From Pseudonocardia sp. N23 (lineage in GTDB: Bacteria > Actinomycetota > Actinomycetes > Mycobacteriales > Pseudonocardiaceae): 64,000 nucleotides of DNA. The notes under the pieces were generated by a model that saw only the letters and a program-made list of their open reading frames with translations, did not search any database and was not told where the DNA came from. Location: the NCBI RefSeq assembly GCF_002583555.1, contig NZ_BEGX01000061.1, positions 109,620 to 173,619 of the forward strand. The letters are read 5' to 3'. A program made the position numbers and the translations under genes. Shown piece by piece: positions 6,006-21,058 of the stretch; the first letter of the stretch is position 1, and each line of letters begins with the position of its first letter.

Positions 6006-6030
6006 CTACCCCACCCACGGCGTGCCGAAC
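6006..6030 (-). promoter_or_regulatory. SigB/SigF-type promoter before small membrane gene
   Basis: On the minus strand GTTC (6030-6027), a 15-base spacer and GGGTAG (6011-6006) match the SigB/SigF promoter pattern. The start codon follows 11 bases after the -10 box, implying a short leader. Confidence 0.5.
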
Positions 6031-6072
6031 ACCCGGCGCTGTCGGGGATCACCCGGATCGCCCAACGGTCGG

Positions 6073-6549
6073 TCAGCTCGCCCGGTCGGCAGGCAGGTGG
6101 AAGGTGACCTCGGTGCCGGCGGAGCCGGGACTGATCGCGACGTCGTGTGCCACCGCGCGGATCATCTCCAGCCCGCGGCCGCGGTAGCCGGGATCGGCGG
6201 GTGGGCGCCGCCAGTGGCCGTGGTCGCACACCCGGACGTCGACGAGCCGGTGCCCACGCCGGCGGCGCAGCCGCAGCGTGATCTCGACGCGCCCGTCGGC
6301 GCTCAGGGGGTAGGCGTGCTCGACGCTGTTGGCGGCCGCCTCACCGACGGCGAGTTGCAGGTCGGCGATCATCTCCTCGTCGAGGTCCAGCGCACGCGCC
6401 CATGCCACGACGGCGCGGCGCATCGGGGCCAGCCGCGCGGGGTCGGACGGGACCTCGAGCATCAGCTCGGTGGCGCCGGTGCGGGGCCCGGGGTCGGCCA
6501 GGGCGCGCAGCCGCACGCTGCGCTCCTGCTCGTCCACCGTGTCCGCCAC
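6073..6549 (-). CDS. Anti-sigma regulatory factor, GHKL serine kinase type
   Basis: A 158-residue single-domain ATPase of the RsbW/SpoIIAB class. The N-box is LAVGEAAANSVEHAYPL, the G1 region is VCDHGHWRRP and the G2 region is YRGRGLEMIRAVAHDV. The start at GTG 6549 is supported by GGAAGGGG eight bases upstream; the frame stays open further upstream but that sequence does not look like this family. It is the second such ATPase within 4 kb, and unlike the first it has no sensory domain. It could bind the sigma factor at 12549 or compete for the STAS antagonist; which pairs form cannot be read from sequence. Confidence 0.83.
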   Translation of the reverse strand: MADTVDEQERSVRLRALADPGPRTGATELMLEVPSDPARLAPMRRAVVAWARALDLDEEMIADLQLAVGEAAANSVEHAYPLSADGRVEITLRLRRRRGHRLVDVRVCDHGHWRRPPADPGYRGRGLEMIRAVAHDVAISPGSAGTEVTFHLPADRAS

Positions 6550-6751
6550 CGGCAACCGCCCCTTCCCGGAGCACCCGGCCCCGGTTCCGTCGGCACCGCG
6601 TGCGGCCGACCGCGTCGCGTCCGTAGGCCGATCCACGCAGTGTTCTTCGTCCGGGGTGGCCAGGATGTGACAGACCCAAACGTCGGCGTCGCCCGACGGG
6701 GTGTACGTCACGCCGGGCGGCACCGATCGGTCGGGGCCGGAGGGCCGGGCG

Positions 6752-13486: not shown

Positions 13487-15847
13487 TCAGCCGGGGTGAC
13501 GGCGCCGCGGGCCGCGGCCGTGGGGCTGCTCGACAGGCTCCACCGGCGGCACCGCCGGCATGTCCCGCACGACCGGGGCGTCGGCGAGCGCGAGCGCCTC
13601 GCCGTGGTGGCGCAGCCTCATCGGCGGACCGCTGACCAGCCGGTACTCGACCTCGTCGGAGGTCATCGTGACGCGCAGCGACCGGCCCTGCCACAGCACC
13701 CCGAACGAGATGCGCGGCAACGCCGCCGGCAGCCGCGGCGCGAACGAGATGCCGTCGCGGTCGGTGCGCATCCCGCCGAACCCGGACGCGACGGCACTCC
13801 ACGTCCCCGCCATCGACGCGATGTGCATGCCGTGGTCGGTGTTGCCCGCCAGGTCCCCCAGGTCGACGAGTGCGGCCTCGGCGAAGTAGTCGTAGGCCAG
13901 GTCGAGGTGGCCCGTCCAGGCCGCGACGACGGCCTGCGTGGCCGCCGACAGCGACGAGTCGCGCACCGTGATCGCCTCGTAGTAGGCGAAGTTGCGGGCC
14001 ATCTGCTCGGGGGTGAAGGCATCGGGCTGCAGCTGCATGGCCAGCACCAGGTCGGCCTGCTTGATGACCTGCTTGCGGTACAGGTCGAAGTACGGGAAAT
14101 GCAGCAGCAGCGGGTACTTCTTCTCCGGCGTGTGCTCGAAGTTCCAGATCTGGTGGTCGGTGAAGCCCTCCGCCTGCGGGTGCACCCCGAGTGTCTCGTC
14201 GAACGGGATCCGCATGGACGCCGCCGCGTCGCGCCAGCTGGCCATCTCCTCGGCGTTGACGCCCAGCTTCGCCGCGGCGCGCGGGTTGCGGGCGGCGACG
14301 TCGGCGGCGTAGCGCAGGTTCAGCTGCGCCATCAGGTTCGTGTAGACGTTGTTGTCGACGATCGCGGTGTACTCGTCGGGGCCGGTCACCCCGTCGATGC
14401 GGAACTGGCCCGCGGAGTCGTGGTGGCCCAGCGACCGCCACAGCCGGGCCGTCTGCACCAGGATGTCCAGCCCGACCTCGCGCTCGAACACGAGGTCGCC
14501 GGTCGCCGCGACGTGGCGGCGCACGGCGTCGGCGATGTCGGCGTTGATGTGGAACGCGGCCGTCCCCGCCGGCCAGTAGCCGGAGCACTCGTGGCCGCGG
14601 ATCGTTCGCCACGGGAACGCCGCACCCGCAAGTCCGAGCTGCTCGGCCCGCTCCATGGCCAGCGGCAGGATCGACTGCCGCCACCGCAGCGCGTCGGCGG
14701 CCGCGTCGGGCGCCAGGTGCGACAGGACCGGCAGTGCGAACGTCTCGGTGTCCCAGAACGTGTGCCCGTCGTAACCGTCGCCGGTGAGCCCCTTGGCCCC
14801 GATCGCGCGGCGCTCCGCACGGGCACCGGCCTGCAGGACGTGGAACACCGCGAGCCGTACCGCCTGCTGCAGCTCGGCGTCACCGTCGATCTCGACGTCG
14901 GCGGTGACCCAGAAGTCGTCGAGGTAGGCGCGCTGCTCGGCGAGCAGGCCCTCCCAGCCGGTGAACCTGGCCGCGGCCAGCCCCGCGCGGACCTGGTCGT
15001 GCACCGCGGGCAGCGAGCGGCGCGACGACCAGCCGTAGGACAGGTACTTGACGATCCGCAGCGTCTCCCCCGGCTTGAGCCGGGCGATGACCGTGGTGCG
15101 GCCGATGTCCTCGGTGGCCTCCGACGACGTCTTCGTCGACTCCGGCCCGTACACCTCGTGGTCCATCGCCGCGGCGAGGCGCAGACCCGACTGCCGGGTC
15201 TGGTGCACCAGCGTCGCGCCGGCGTTCTCGCTGCGGTGCTGCTCGGACACCAGCGGCTCGGCCAGCGCGGCCTCGACGCGGGGGTCGCCGTTGGCGCGTT
15301 GCGGGAGCTGCTCGTTGGCGACGAGCTCGGACTGCACGACGAGCGTCGTCGGGGCGTCGACCGCCTCGACCTCGTAGCAGATCGCCGCGATCGCCCGTTG
15401 CGTCAGCGACACCAGCCGGGTGCTGCGCACACGGATCGTCCGGTCGGCAGGCGAGGCCCACTCGACCTCCCGGGTGAGCGTCCCGGCCTGCAGGTCCAGG
15501 ACCCGCTCGTGCCGGTTGAGGGTGCCGTAGCGCAGGTCGAACGGCTCGTCGTCGACCAGCAGCCGGATGAGCTTGCCGTTGGTGACATTGATGATCGTCT
15601 GGCCGGACTCGGGATAGCCGTAGCCGCCCTCGGCGTAGGGCAGCGGCCGCCGCTCGTACAGCGAGTTCAGGTAGGTGCCGGGGATGGCGTGCGGCTCGCC
15701 CTCGTCGAGGTTGCCTCGCATGCCGATGTGGCCGTTGGACAGCGCGAACACCGACTCGGTCTGCCCCATCGCCTCCAGGTGCAGTGCGGGCTCGCGCACG
15801 CACCAGGGCTCGACCGTGAACGGCCGCCCGGTGTCCGACGCGGTCAT
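13487..15847 (-). CDS. Glycoside hydrolase family 65 phosphorylase (trehalose/maltose/kojibiose type)
   Basis: A 786-residue GH65 protein, the same size and layout as mycobacterial Rv3401. Domains in order are an N-terminal beta-sandwich ([13 protein letters not shown]), an (alpha/alpha)6 catalytic barrel and a small C-terminal beta domain. The barrel contains [26 protein letters not shown] and the catalytic acid region [18 protein letters not shown] (Glu492). Members use phosphate to split alpha-linked glucose disaccharides, releasing beta-glucose 1-phosphate. The upstream gene, a beta-phosphoglucomutase-like HAD enzyme overlapping by ATGA, would convert that product to glucose 6-phosphate, so the pair forms a disaccharide salvage route. 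The exact disaccharide is not determined. Confidence 0.9.
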
Positions 15848-16614
15848 CGGCCCTCCTCCAGCAGCTCGGCCAGGTCGTCGACGACGACGGTCGCGCCGTG
15901 CTCGCGCAGGGCGGCGGCCTGGTCGAGCCGGTTCACCCCGACGACCGCGACGAACCCGCCCGCGCGGCCCGCCTCGACGCCGGCGAGGGCGTCCTCGAAG
16001 ACGACGGCCTCCTCGGTGCCGACCCCGAGGTCCGCGGCGGCGGCGAGGAACGTGTCGGGGGCGGGCTTGCCCGGCAGCGACCGCTGCTTGGCGACGACAC
16101 CGTCGACGCGGTGGTCGACGTACTGCGCGAGATCGGAGACCTCCAGCACCTGCTCGGCGTTGGCCGACGACGACACCACCGCCGTCTGCAGCCCGGCCGC
16201 GCGCACGGCCTTCAGGTAGCGCACCGAGCCGGGGTAGACGTCGACACCGTTGGTCCGGATCTTCTCCTGGACCATGTCGTTCTTGCGGGTCGACAAGCCC
16301 CAGACCGTGTCGGCGGTGGGGTCGTCGTCCGGCCCTCCCTGCGGCAGCTCGATGCCCCGGGAACGCAGGAACCCGTCCGTGCCCTCCATCCGCGGCCGCC
16401 CGTCGACGTACGGGCCGTAGTCGGCCGTGAGGTCGAACGGCCGGAACGGCTCACCCGTGCGGTCGGCACGCGCGCGCAGGAAGTCGTCGAACATCTGCTT
16501 CCAGGCGGCGGCGTGAACACTGGCGGTGTCGGTGAGGACACCGTCCAGATCGAACAGGCAGGCGCGCGTCGCACCCGGCAGACCCAACATGGCGGCACCG
16601 TATCTCTCGATCAT
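15844..16614 (-). CDS. Beta-phosphoglucomutase-like HAD phosphatase
   Basis: A 256-residue HAD-family enzyme resembling mycobacterial Rv3400. The nucleophile and acid/base aspartates are in [14 protein letters not shown], motif II is [12 protein letters not shown], the lysine is in [14 protein letters not shown] and the acidic motif is [16 protein letters not shown]. It would interconvert beta-glucose 1-phosphate and glucose 6-phosphate. It overlaps the downstream GH65 gene by ATGA, which supports that role. Two starts are possible: ATG 16614 (used here) and ATG 16590; neither has a strong ribosome site. Confidence 0.87.
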
Positions 16615-16663: not shown

Positions 16664-18238
16664 TCAGAGGGTGGCGCCTGCCGGGCGGACCGTCCAGGTG
16701 CGGCCCGTGGCGGTCTCGGTGATCGTGACGACGCAGTGGCCGCCGTCGGCGGCCGCGTCGACCGTGACCTCGCCACCCTCGGGATGCGGCTCGACGACCT
16801 CCTGCACGATCGCCCTGACCTGCGCGAGCACCTCCAGCGGGGTGACCGGCAGCTCGTCGAGACCGGGCTCGCACACGATCGAAGCCGTGAGCCGCTTGCC
16901 GAACCGGGCCTGCTCGAGCTGCAGGTAGGCCCGCACCGAGTCGAGCTCGTCGCGCAACGTGATCGTGTCGTCGGCGGGGCGGTCGGCCGCACGGGTCAGG
17001 TCGGCGAAGCCCAGCAGCAGCTCCCGGGCCCGGCCGGGGTCGGTGCGCACCAGCGACGCGATCGTGTTGAGCGAGTTGTAGACGAAGTGCTGCTCCAGCC
17101 GCCGCGCCTGCACGCGCTGCTCCTCGGGAACGACCCGGGGCGCGGGTTCCTGCTCCGGGACGCGCGGCTGCGGCGCCGCGGGCGCCGGAGCCTCCTCCGG
17201 GCCGTCGAGGTCGACGGTGCGCACCTCGCTTTCGCCGGAGTCCCAGCGCTCGTCGTCGGCGAAACCGTCGTCCCACAGGCCGTCCTCGACCTCCTCCGGC
17301 GCGACCAGGCCCCGCCACACCGGCAGCCGGAGCCGCCCGCCCACGGTCCACTCGGTGAACTCGACCTGCCCCACCAGCCGCGGCACCGCCCACAGGGCGT
17401 CGCGCGCCACGCTCGCCGGCACCCCGCCCGCGAACGCCGACTCCGCAGTACCCAGGTCGGGCAGCAGAGCGGTCACCGCCGCCCGCGGCGCACCGGCACC
17501 CAGCCCCACCCGGCCGACGTAGCGCAGCCCCGCCGGGCCCGGCACCCCGAGCAGCAGCGCCGCCACCGTGTCCGGCCGGTCGGGCGAGGCGGGCGTCCAG
17601 CCGCCGACGACCACCTGCCGTGACTGCCGCAGCGGCACCCGCAGCCAGTTCCGCGACCGCCTGCCCGGTTGGTAGGCGGAGTCGAGCCGCTTCGCGTACA
17701 CGCCGTCGAGGCCGTACCGCCGCGCCGTGGCCAGCACGTGCCCGGCGTCGCCCGCGGGCCACGACGGCGAGAGCACGACGGGCTGCTCGGCCAGGCCGAG
17801 GTCGTCGACCAGCTCCCGGCGCCGCTGGTAGGGCAACGACGTCGTCGACTCCCCGTCGAGCCACATCAGGTCGCTGACGAAGAACCCGACCGGCACGTCG
17901 GCGACCAGCCCTGCGCCCGGCCGCTGGGTCGCGGTGCGACGCATCAGCAGCCGCCTGCTCGGGACCCCCGCGTCGTCGAGGGCGACGACGGTCCCGTCGA
18001 GGATCACGCCGTTCCGGGGGGCCTTGGCCGCGAGCACGTGCAGCTCCGGGAACGCCGACGTGACCGACCGGTCCCGAGCGGTGAGCAGCCGGACCCGGCC
18101 GGGCCTCGCGTAGGCGATGGCGCGCAGCCCGTCCCACGCGAACTCGACGGCCCATCCCGGGCCGCTCGGCATGTCCCCGGTGGCCGCCTGCATGGGCGGC
18201 ACCAGGTCGGGCATCCCGCCCGTGCCCGCCCGGACCAT
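16664..18238 (-). CDS. Catalytically dead ATP-dependent DNA ligase fold fused to LytS-type kinase module
   Basis: A 524-residue protein. Residues 1-215 match the adenylation domain of LigD-type ligases, 225-312 match the ligase OB domain ([21 protein letters not shown]), 313-372 are an acidic/proline linker, and 373-470 match the LytS/YehU-type dimerisation and phosphoacceptor segment ([18 protein letters not shown] with H384, [16 protein letters not shown]). The ligase motifs are broken: the nucleotide-accepting lysine of KxDG is Ala34 (AWDG; GCG codon at 18139-18137), the motif III glutamate is Thr83 (DGT), and the motif V lysines are Arg200 and Pro202. Motif IV keeps K183. The C-terminal ATPase lacks a recognisable N-box. 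The start ATG 18238 is preceded by GGTGAGG. Neither ligation nor autokinase activity is expected; a binding or signalling role is inference. Confidence 0.8.
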
Positions 18239-18520
18239 CACCTCACCAGCGTAGTTCGCGACCCGGCCCGGACGGTCGCGCGTCGGCCGTGCGGGCGACG
18301 GAACGGGACGAACGGAGATCAACAGGTGCCCGGCGCGCGCCGAACGGTCGGCCCCGCCGGCCCACGACGACGGTGCGGACCCGACGGATGGCTGTGACCT
18401 GCGGCAACCGACCTCGACACCGCCCGGCGCGGCCACCGCTCACCCGCTCGTCGCGCATCGTCGGTCACCGGACACCCCGACGCCACGCCACGACGCTGCG
18501 CGGGGGACGATCGACTCATC

Positions 18521-21058
18521 ATGACCAGCACACTCGCCGACCGGCTGCCCTCCCCCGACGACCCCGACGCCCTCGTCGAGACCTTCGCCGAGTGGGCGTT
18601 CGACGAGCAGGGCCTGTCGCTGTACCCGGCGCAGGAGGAGGCGCTGCTGGAGCTGGTCACCGGCGCGAACGTCATCCTGTCGACGCCCACGGGCTCCGGG
18701 AAGTCGCTCGTGGCCATCGCCGCGCACGCCGTCGCGCTGGCCCGCGGGGAGCGGACGTTCTACACCGCGCCGATCAAGGCGCTGGTCAGTGAGAAGTTCT
18801 TCGCGCTGTGCGCGGTGTTCGGGGCCGACAAGGTCGGGATGCTCACCGGCGACGCCGCCGTCAACGAGACCGCGCCGATCATCTGCTGCACCGCGGAGAT
18901 CCTCGCCAACATCGCGCTGCGCGGCGGCCGCGGCGCCGAGGTGGGCTCGGTCGTCATGGACGAGTTCCACTTCTACGCCGACCCCTCCCGCGGCTGGGCG
19001 TGGCAGGTGCCGCTGATCGAGCTGCCGCAGGCGCAGTTCGTGCTGATGAGCGCGACCCTGGGCGACGTCTCGTTCTTCCGCGACGACCTGACCCGCCGCA
19101 CCGGCCGGCAGACCGCGGTGATCACCTCGGCGGAGCGGCCGGTGCCCCTGCACTACCGCTACGTCCTGACGCCGCTGCACGAGACGATCGACGAGCTGCT
19201 CGCGACGCACGAGGCTCCCGTCTACGTCGTGCACTTCACCCAGCAGGCCGCCGTCGAACGGGCGCAGTCGCTGATGAGCGTCAACGTGTCGTCGAAGGAG
19301 GACAAGGCCGCGATCGCCGACCTCATCGGCGCGTTCCGCTTCACCGCGGGCTTCGGCCGCACGCTCTCACGTCTTGTCCGCCACGGCATCGGGGTCCACC
19401 ACGCGGGGATGCTCCCCCGCTACCGCCGGCTCGTCGAGACGCTCGCGCAGGCCGGGCTGCTCAAGGTCATCTGCGGCACCGACACCCTCGGCGTCGGGAT
19501 CAACGTCCCGATCCGGACCGTGCTGTTCACCGCACTGGCCAAGTACGACGGGGTCCGGGTGCGCGGGCTCAAGGCGCGCGAGTTCCACCAGATCGCGGGC
19601 CGGGCCGGCCGGGCGGGGTACGACACCGTCGGGACCGTGGTCGCCGAGGCCCCCGACCACGAGGTCGAGAACGCCCGGCTGCTGGCCCGCGCCGGCGACG
19701 ACCTCAAGAAGCGCAAGCGGATCGTGCGCAAGCAGGCGCCCGACGGGTTCGTCGGCTGGAGCGACAAGTCGTTCGAACGGCTGCAGACCGCCCAGCCCGA
19801 GGCGCTCACCAGCCACTTCACCGTTACCCACGCGATGCTGCTCAACGTGATCTCCCGGCCCGGCGACGCCTTCGCGGCCATGCGCCACCTGCTGGAGGAC
19901 AACCACGAGCCGCGCGACCGGCAGCGCAAGCACATCCTGCGTGCCATCGCGATCTACCGGGCGTTGCGCGACTCCGGCGTCGTCGAGGAGCTGCCCGAGC
20001 CGGATGCCGAGGGCCGCCGGGTACGCGTCGTCGGCGACCTGCAGCTCGACTTCGCGCTCAACCAGCCGTTGTCCCCCTTCGCGTTGGCCGCCGTGGAGCT
20101 GCTCGACCGGACGTCGCCGACCTACGCGCTCGACGTGCTCTCGACCATCGAGTCGACCCTCGACGACCCGCGCCAGATCCTGCACGCGCAGGAGAACAAG
20201 GCCCGCGGCGAGGCCGTCCAGGCCATGAAGGCCGACGGTATCGAGTACGAGGAGCGGATGGCGCTGCTCGAGGAGGTCAGCTACCCGAAGCCGCTGGCCG
20301 AGAACCTCGAGGCCGCGCTGGAGACCTACCGCCGCGGCCACCCGTGGGTCGCCGACGCCCGGCTCTCGCCCAAGTCCGTCGTGCGCGACATGTCCGAGCG
20401 GTCGATGACGTTCGTCGAGTACGTCGGGCACTACCAGCTCGCCCGCTCCGAAGGGCTCGTCCTGCGCTACCTCGCCGACGCCTACCGGGCCCTGCGCCAG
20501 ACCGTGCCCGACGAGGCCAAGACCGAGGAGCTCACCGACATCGTCGAGTGGCTCGGCGAGCTGGTCCGCCAGGTCGACTCGAGCCTGCTCGACGAGTGGG
20601 AGGCCCTCGCCGCCGGCGCCGGCACGGGCGACGAGCCCGTTCCCCCGTCGCTGGACCAGGGTCCGGCCGGGGTCACCCGCAACGTGCGGGCGTTCCGCGT
20701 GCTGGTCCGCAACGCGATGTTCCGCCGCGTCGAGCTGGCGGCACTGCGCCGCTGGGACCTCCTCGGCGAGCTGGACAAGGACAACGGCTGGGACGCCGCC
20801 GCCTGGCGGGAGGCGTTCGACCCGTACTGGGAGCTGCACGACGACATCGGCACCGGTCCCGATGCCCGCGGCCCGCAGCTGGTCACGATCGAGGTCGAGC
20901 CGGAACGCTGGCGCGTCCGCCAGGTCCTCGACGACCCGGCGGGCGACCGCGACTGGGCCGTCACCGCCGAGGTCGACCTCGCGGCGTCCGACGAGGCCGG
21001 CGAGGCCGTCGTCTGGATCACCGGCGTCTCCGACGCGGCGGACTGGGCCGCGTCGTAG
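18521..21058 (+). CDS. DEAD/DEAH-box helicase with DUF3516 C-terminal domain
   Basis: An 845-residue superfamily 2 helicase. Walker A is LSTPTGSGKSLVAIAAHA, the DExH box is VVMDEFHFYADPSRGWAW, motif III is LMSATLGD, and domain 2 includes GVHHAGMLPRYRRLVE and HQIAGRAGRAGYDT. The C-terminal ~350 residues correspond to the DUF3516 region restricted mainly to actinobacteria. The layout resembles Ski2-like RNA helicases, so RNA processing is plausible but unproven. It is divergent from the dead-ligase/kinase fusion, sharing a 282-base upstream region. A strong terminator follows. Confidence 0.88.
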   Translation: MTSTLADRLPSPDDPDALVETFAEWAFDEQGLSLYPAQEEALLELVTGANVILSTPTGSGKSLVAIAAHAVALARGERTFYTAPIKALVSEKFFALCAVFGADKVGMLTGDAAVNETAPIICCTAEILANIALRGGRGAEVGSVVMDEFHFYADPSRGWAWQVPLIELPQAQFVLMSATLGDVSFFRDDLTRRTGRQTAVITSAERPVPLHYRYVLTPLHETIDELLATHEAPVYVVHFTQQAAVERAQSLMSVNVSSKEDKAAIADLIGAFRFTAGFGRTLSRLVRHGIGVHHAGMLPRYRRLVETLAQAGLLKVICGTDTLGVGINVPIRTVLFTALAKYDGVRVRGLKAREFHQIAGRAGRAGYDTVGTVVAEAPDHEVENARLLARAGDDLKKRKRIVRKQAPDGFVGWSDKSFERLQTAQPEALTSHFTVTHAMLLNVISRPGDAFAAMRHLLEDNHEPRDRQRKHILRAIAIYRALRDSGVVEELPEPDAEGRRVRVVGDLQLDFALNQPLSPFALAAVELLDRTSPTYALDVLSTIESTLDDPRQILHAQENKARGEAVQAMKADGIEYEERMALLEEVSYPKPLAENLEAALETYRRGHPWVADARLSPKSVVRDMSERSMTFVEYVGHYQLARSEGLVLRYLADAYRALRQTVPDEAKTEELTDIVEWLGELVRQVDSSLLDEWEALAAGAGTGDEPVPPSLDQGPAGVTRNVRAFRVLVRNAMFRRVELAALRRWDLLGELDKDNGWDAAAWREAFDPYWELHDDIGTGPDARGPQLVTIEVEPERWRVRQVLDDPAGDRDWAVTAEVDLAASDEAGEAVVWITGVSDAADWAAS

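Follow-up and report, generated by a model that had tools for sequence, protein, structure and literature searches.

A LigD-type pseudo-ligase joined to a LytS-type histidine-kinase segment in Pseudonocardia and sister genera

Introduction

What might a protein do in which a DNA ligase fold without its catalytic residues is joined to part of a histidine kinase? The gene that raises this question lies on the minus strand at 16664..18238 of a 64,000-nucleotide stretch of the Pseudonocardia sp. N23 genome (the window); it appears in the open reading frame list as 524 amino acids plus stop, and it has orthologues across the genus. It is a LigD-type pseudo-ligase joined to a LytS-type histidine-kinase segment. 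Comparison with its relatives makes it look like a conserved break-sensing or repair-scaffold protein, and our preferred reading, to which we give a probability of roughly 0.4, is that this pseudo-enzyme fusion couples DNA breaks, or the NHEJ complex on them, to a histidine-phosphorylation module.

Two-component kinases with new input domains are a kind already known. If a dead NHEJ ligase does serve in nature as the input domain of a histidine kinase, break repair and two-component signalling would be linked. Intermediates survive in the family as well, the ligase residues being gone in every member examined and the kinase ATP-binding residues in one clade only, and it offers a testable case of two enzymes becoming one pseudo-enzyme that selection still holds. 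We know of no signalling arm of bacterial NHEJ, and a search of the open-access literature found none. A search of the same literature by title and start of abstract found, among the papers listed, no description of a ligase-histidine kinase fusion; a paper elsewhere could exist. According to the portion of PMC5124664 consulted, basic bacterial NHEJ has two partners, Ku and LigD; that portion has no mention of histidine, catalytic or Pseudonocardia. The corresponding portion of another account of bacterial NHEJ (PMC7719229) has no mention of histidine, fusion or inactive, and contains "kinase" once, in its reference list.

Architecture of the fusion gene

Two Pfam families cover the ligase half of the window protein. 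DNA_ligase_A_M (PF01068; E 1.5e-19) spans residues 27-200 (17639..18160, minus strand), a nucleotidyltransferase domain that is dead as judged by alignment to 1VS0 and that contains the codons of Ala34 (18137-18139) and Thr83 (17990-17992). DNA_ligase_A_C (PF04679; E 4.7e-13) spans residues 223-311 (17306..17572, minus strand), an OB-fold domain also recovered by a Foldseek match to 1VS0. A linker at about residues 325-379 (17102..17266, minus strand), recognised by pLDDT<50 over most of its length and by its dN/dS, leads to a LytS-type H-box/DHp-like segment at residues 379-450 (16889..17104, minus strand; His_kinase, PF06580, E 2.4e-16), with the His384 codon at 17087-17089. Residues 451-517 (16688..16888, minus strand) align to 6SWJ as the remnant of a GHKL ATPase domain, the former N-box region lying at about 16790-16831; no HATPase_c was found in the window protein by Pfam scan at E<=1. 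The first-pass annotation of the window had proposed a ligase fold fused to a LytS-like segment, and the domain search of both halves agrees with it.

By sequence, the solved ligase that comes closest is 1VS0, the ligase domain of M. tuberculosis LigD (E 4.4e-54), and the kinase part gives a match to 6SWJ, a histidine kinase (E 1.4e-13). An AlphaFold model of the fusion has a mean pLDDT of 86.5, with confident ligase and H-box domains and a mostly low-confidence linker (~325-379). When the whole predicted model was searched with Foldseek, LigD ligase structures came out on top, with 1VS0 at E 5.8e-28 and ~38% identity. The pTM is 0.58, so the placement of the domains relative to one another is not fixed by the model.

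Distribution

The set behind the residue counts below comprises 51 distinct fusions of Pseudonocardia and its sister genera g25, g59 and g64, that is, 53 loci minus L088 and L130, which are identical to L053 and L073; the partial contigs L085-L087 and L089 were left out. A further 29 same-genus copies (L009-L037) stand outside this set: 21 duplicate named loci and eight come from further genomes (L014, L021, L026, L030, L034-L037).

In the same-genus search, 34 of 36 genomes (the window's own included) carry the fusion among the matches listed, and two (G021 and G028) show other ligases only. The gene is one open reading frame except in G006, G024, G029 and G033, where the halves lie on different contigs, which fits contig breaks. 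The first-pass annotation had allowed that the junction might be an assembly error or the missing lysine a recent point mutation, with the halves separate or KxDG intact in relatives. Both are ruled out, because 51 distinct fusions share the state and none of them has the lysine.

Among the best 80 of 157 confirmed stretches of a GTDB scan, L047-L084 (38 loci) together with L088 and L090 are full-length or near full-length fusions, all of them from Pseudonocardia or Pseudonocardiaceae. A draw of 150 genomes of the family gave at least 19 with full-length fusions among the matches listed, in 4 of 46 genera (Pseudonocardia, g25, g59 and g64); one genome, G096, holds two fusions. The match in G160 has one stop in the reading from this search, and the open reading frame used for G160 has none. 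Overlapping draws of 397 order, 394 class and 396 phylum genomes, with strict cut-offs and the top three candidates scored per genome, listed no full-length fusion outside the family, although fusions with a long linker could escape the coverage test, as the true fusion in G002 appeared there as a ligase part only. At E<=1e-105, 49 of 397 genomes matched in the order draw and 20 of 394 in the class draw; at the stricter 1e-112 of the phylum draw, the own genome was the sole match. Each listed match outside the family (f1) spans the ligase part alone, up to about model position 360 of 550. A fused gene widespread in Actinomycetota was thus not seen within these three draws.

Loss of ligase chemistry

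In the alignment to 1VS0, KWDG reads AWDG in the window protein (Ala34), LDGE reads LDGT (Thr83) and the motif V KxK reads RxP (200/202). The residues at these motifs, for ligase and kinase alike, were read from the alignments. The AMP-accepting lysine is absent in 51/51 distinct fusions (A, G, D, V, S, T, Y or L instead) and so is the motif III glutamate (T, V, L or K instead), as both are in 30/30 when the 29 further same-genus copies are taken with the window's. The claim of a ligase fold without the AMP-accepting lysine and motif III glutamate is therefore upheld; the suggestion that Ala34 and Thr83 themselves might be fixed holds for the loss of Lys and Glu, and the residues that replace them vary.

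Could the protein still function as a ligase or AMP-transferase despite lacking the KxDG lysine? The fold is kept, and Arg39 of motif I is retained in 51/51 fusions. Against this stand the loss of the lysine, of the motif III glutamate and, in the window's clade, of the motif IIIa aromatic, and their replacement by varied residues; we consider this reading very unlikely. The motif IIIa residue is Phe in 12 of the 14 fusions that retain an N-box (see below) and in 0/37 members of the window's clade, and the motif IV lysine is kept in 32/51 fusions, with Arg in the remaining 19.

Motif V was dropped as a proof of inactivity. The first-pass reading of Arg200 and Pro202 is correct against 1VS0, but it proves little: the second motif V lysine is also missing from two paralogs in the own genome that have both KWDG and the motif III glutamate, and one of them is without the first as well. 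The Ku-adjacent LigC-like ligase of the own genome (L003; L164 8480-9409, contig C112) keeps KWDG and the motif III Glu, with E and T in the two columns of the motif V lysines.

A kinase half with and without its ATP-binding residues

The window protein has His384 within the motif HFVYN and carries other residues where 6SWJ has its N-box and G1, as the first-pass annotation had held in describing a LytS-like segment with H384 and without the N-box. Across the 51 distinct fusions, H384 and N388 (H+4) are conserved throughout; the H-box reads HFxYN, with F or H in place of Y in some g25 and g64 members. The same alignment of homologues thus has the histidine kept in every fusion and the ligase Lys and motif III Glu absent from every one. 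The H384 motif is also present in 28/30 of the same-genus set with the window's copy, the other two (L014, L037) ending at contig ends before it.

The description of the kinase half as degenerate fits the window's clade and fails for the family as a whole. The N-box region is recognisable in 14/51 fusions, from P. eucalypti, P. spinosispora, g25, g59 and g64; this group was named by locus and agrees exactly with the N-box regular expression. The N-box Asn is found in 13 of these 14 (Ala in L073), as against 0/37 in the window's clade. Members from g64 also carry a DDGAGMGP G1 box and a GGIAEVxRRL (G2-like) stretch, and L132, the one g64 protein scanned, matches HATPase_c at E 1.3e-10. That 14 of 51 fusions retain the N-box region and branch around the window's clade makes it probable that the ancestral fusion worked as a kinase and that the ATPase-less form of the window's clade arose later. 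Within the old N-box helix of the window's clade, R/K475 and Q479 are newly fixed in 37/37, which looks like re-use of that helix, not free drift.

Ancestry

When 45 ligase domains were placed in a maximum-likelihood tree, all 27 fusions among them (26 of the 51 and the second G096 copy) fell in one clade (98/96). Its sister is a set of six LigD-type ligases that have KWDG and come from the same family of bacteria (97/90; joint group 97/98), and by this tree the fusions share their descent with LigD-type ligases. The 15 sampled ATPase-less members form one clade (100/99) that groups with g64 (99/97), and it is uncertain where among the fusions P. eucalypti and P. spinosispora branch (67/41). 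A tree of kinase domains (19 of the 51) supported a single fusion weakly (51/83). Identity to the resident LytS is 49-60% over about 196 residues for the four N-box-retaining fusions compared, and 40% over 140 residues for the window protein. The likely course of events, as far as trees and motifs indicate, began with a copy of a ligase gene, which lost its chemistry and was fused to a copy of LytS, in either order; one Pseudonocardia lineage then lost the ATP-binding half. Among the unfused ligases listed, a ligase-only relative from genus g43 (G146:C1:980049-981050) scores highest against the fusion profile, with 432 bits.

Constraint on the parts of the gene

Nei-Gojobori dN/dS of the window gene against L047, L060 and L049, given in that order and as simple pairwise counts without a significance test, was 0.10, 0.11 and 0.22 for the ligase part and 0.065, 0.038 and 0.10 for the H-box segment (residues 376-452). 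For the linker (residues 313-375) it was 0.55, 0.29 and 0.59, for the GHKL remnant 0.52, 0.29 and 0.73, and for the entire gene 0.24, 0.17 and 0.34; six more pairs, for which the entire gene alone was compared, gave 0.15-0.26. What the cell keeps, by these counts, is the dead ligase and the His-bearing helices; the linker and the ATPase remnant are weakly constrained.

These values bear on two alternatives. A decaying relic without function would account for catalytic residues gone from two domains and for a linker and GHKL remnant that evolve fast, but not for the strong constraint on the ligase and H-box parts nor for a fusion carried by 34/36 same-genus genomes among the matches listed; we regard it as very unlikely. 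The second alternative is a structural NHEJ accessory, in which the dead ligase would hold or bridge break ends and the H-box segment would dimerise, with no phosphate moved and the His and Asn serving helix packing. ATP-binding residues are lost in 37/51 fusions, yet no other part compared is as strongly constrained as the H-box segment, and, according to the part of PMC3694833 consulted, yeast Dnl4 mutated in its catalysis can still bind breaks and allow imprecise joining. The ancestor, however, looks like a working kinase by the N-box region in 14/51, the g64 G1 box and G2-like stretch and the HATPase_c match of L132, and the His and H+4 Asn are kept in 37/37 after loss of the ATPase. We tentatively hold the structural reading to be a serious possibility, and the invariant His and Asn could indeed be structural rather than phosphate-handling, a point that weighs against break signalling.

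Genomic neighbourhood

Divergent from the fusion lies a DEAD-box helicase with DUF3516 (18521..21058, plus strand; PF12029, E 1.3e-216), the neighbour that the first-pass annotation had named; our literature search found no paper on DUF3516. Downstream, 52 bp from the stop of the fusion and co-directional with it, the open reading frame list and Pfam give a HAD-family hydrolase (15844..16611, minus strand), past which the next gene in the same direction encodes a GH65-family enzyme (13487..15847, minus strand). Among the 37 loci of the ATPase-less clade, a DUF3516 helicase homologue is found divergently upstream within about 1.7 kb in 36 (all but L071), GH65 downstream in 36 and HAD downstream in 34; L056 ends with its contig, and L052 and L070 are without HAD.

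Such constancy, with a 52-bp gap in the window that suggests co-transcription with the HAD gene, speaks for a regulator of a process other than breaks, in which the dead ligase would bind RNA or a nucleotide and work with the helicase or the HAD/GH65 genes. None of the three neighbours is found near any of the 14 N-box-retaining members, in flanks of 6 kb (shorter where a contig ends), and none of the 37 members of the window's clade has the aromatic residue of motif IIIa in the nucleotide pocket; we think this reading improbable.

Around the N-box-retaining fusions of the three sister genera, Ku recurs. In 5/5 g25 loci it immediately precedes the fusion on the strand they share, either overlapping it or some 100 bp off; it is convergent and adjacent in the g59 genome with L130, and convergent with the second fusion copy (L161) in the other g59 genome, G096; and it lies about 9-11 kb from the fusion in 4/4 g64 genomes checked. 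Pfam confirms Ku at L129, L130 and L161. The helicase, HAD and GH65 genes accompany the fusion in the ATPase-less clade alone, so that its older genomic partner appears to be Ku and not the helicase.

Several observations weigh against coupling to breaks. No Ku was found within fusion flanks of up to 6 kb in the window's clade, and the single Ku of the own genome is on a contig other than the fusion's. P. spinosispora, P. eucalypti and the first G096 copy (L127) keep the N-box without Ku nearby, Ku having not been found in the flanks of L127. In addition, no LytTR gene was found near the fusion in the 17 genomes searched. The own genome has five LytTR genes, all on contigs other than C61, the three g25 and four g64 genomes checked have a single one each, within about 5 kb of the resident LytS, and the other 10 genomes checked have 1 to 5 each.

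The resident LytS locus of the window's genome (L046 5521-9603, contig C17) holds an Fpg-type DNA glycosylase, then LytS (GAF, His_kinase, HATPase_c), an S49 peptidase and, after it, a LytTR regulator. A like gene order is present at the resident LytS in G101 (L200), judged by the look of the sequences.

A second set of dead ligases, without a kinase part, adjoins Ku in two g64 genomes and in G096 (L162 9425-10471, plus strand; L163 about 6015-6719, minus strand; L161 5010-5564, minus strand). They read EVDWSGIR, EVDWAGVR and EVRWTGLR where active relatives have KWDG, and they form one group (100/96) among Ku-adjacent LigC-like ligases. On G096 contig C543 (L161), the second fusion lies beside Ku and the dead LigC-like ligase on the other side of Ku.

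A DNA-damage promoter for the fusion was considered and rejected: strict PafBC-type and two SOS consensus patterns gave 0 matches upstream of 52 sequences (the window's and 51 loci, one of them a duplicate), a result that also weighs against break signalling, and a loosened PafBC pattern gave three scattered matches upstream of the same sequences. Shortly before the start of the fusion (within 18239-18520 of the window), the stretch CTACGCTG is conserved in 6/6 aligned relatives and is a candidate -10 element. In g64 (L136 4252-5723), genes for an ECF-type sigma factor and an RskA-type anti-sigma factor immediately precede the fusion and share its direction. Membership in a known defence system was also rejected, PADLOC giving no match for the fusion or its g64 homologue and matching the helicase to helicase models.

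A possible mechanism

LigD-type ligase domains act on nicks and breaks, the H-box segments of LytS dimerise, and H+4 residues matter for phosphatase activity in other kinases. On the preferred reading, coupling of breaks to a histidine-phosphorylation module, a copy of a LigD-type NHEJ ligase lost its catalytic residues and was joined to a copy of the resident LytS kinase, a step that trees and motifs support. In the ancestral form, the dead ligase domain would bind a break end, a nick or Ku, and would control the fused kinase. In the window's clade, where the ATP-binding half was lost, a DHp-like segment with the invariant His and H+4 Asn remains. This segment would likely act as an ATPase-less phosphoacceptor or phosphatase, or else as a dimerising partner of the resident LytS-LytTR pair, after the fashion of Spo0B or ChpT. 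That pair, whose locus includes the Fpg-type DNA glycosylase in the window's genome and which has the only LytTR gene found in the seven g25 and g64 genomes checked, would be a natural partner. The fullest version, a break-signalling arm in which the pseudo-ligase reads Ku-bound or nicked ends and drives the fused LytS kinase, one lineage having turned it into an ATPase-less phosphorelay node that feeds or drains an Fpg-linked LytS-LytTR pathway, is doubtful on the sequence comparisons made here.

Comparison with known systems

The fusion shares its two-domain fold with the ligase domain of LigD (NHEJ, 1VS0), and LigD-type ligases of the same family form its sister clade. It differs in being without the catalytic lysine and motif III glutamate (51/51) and in carrying a kinase segment at its C-terminus. 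With LytS-type kinases (PF06580 and HATPase_c) that work with LytTR it has the H-box HFxYN in common, and it resembles the resident LytS. Where the resident LytS has GAF, however, the fusion has a dead ligase, there is no LytTR gene near it in the 17 genomes, and the ATP-binding half is lost in the fusions of the window's clade.

Spo0B is a DHp module with a degenerated CA domain. Spo0B and ChpT are not known to carry a ligase domain. ChpT shows kinship to DHp and CA domains, its CA domain having degenerated in function (PMC9981736, in the part consulted). The fusion shares with both a DHp histidine and a degenerate ATPase-like domain, by sequence and predicted order of helices and strands; phosphotransfer is established for them and putative for the fusion.

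DivL lacks the phosphoacceptor His. Like DivL-type pseudo-histidine kinases, the fusion would be a kinase repurposed away from its usual role (PMC4211667, in part), but it keeps the His. Catalytically dead yeast Dnl4 is a parallel for the other half, in that a dead ligase still goes to breaks (PMC3694833, in part). The dead Dnl4 proteins are point mutants that were made, whereas the fusion is a pseudo-ligase fixed in nature.
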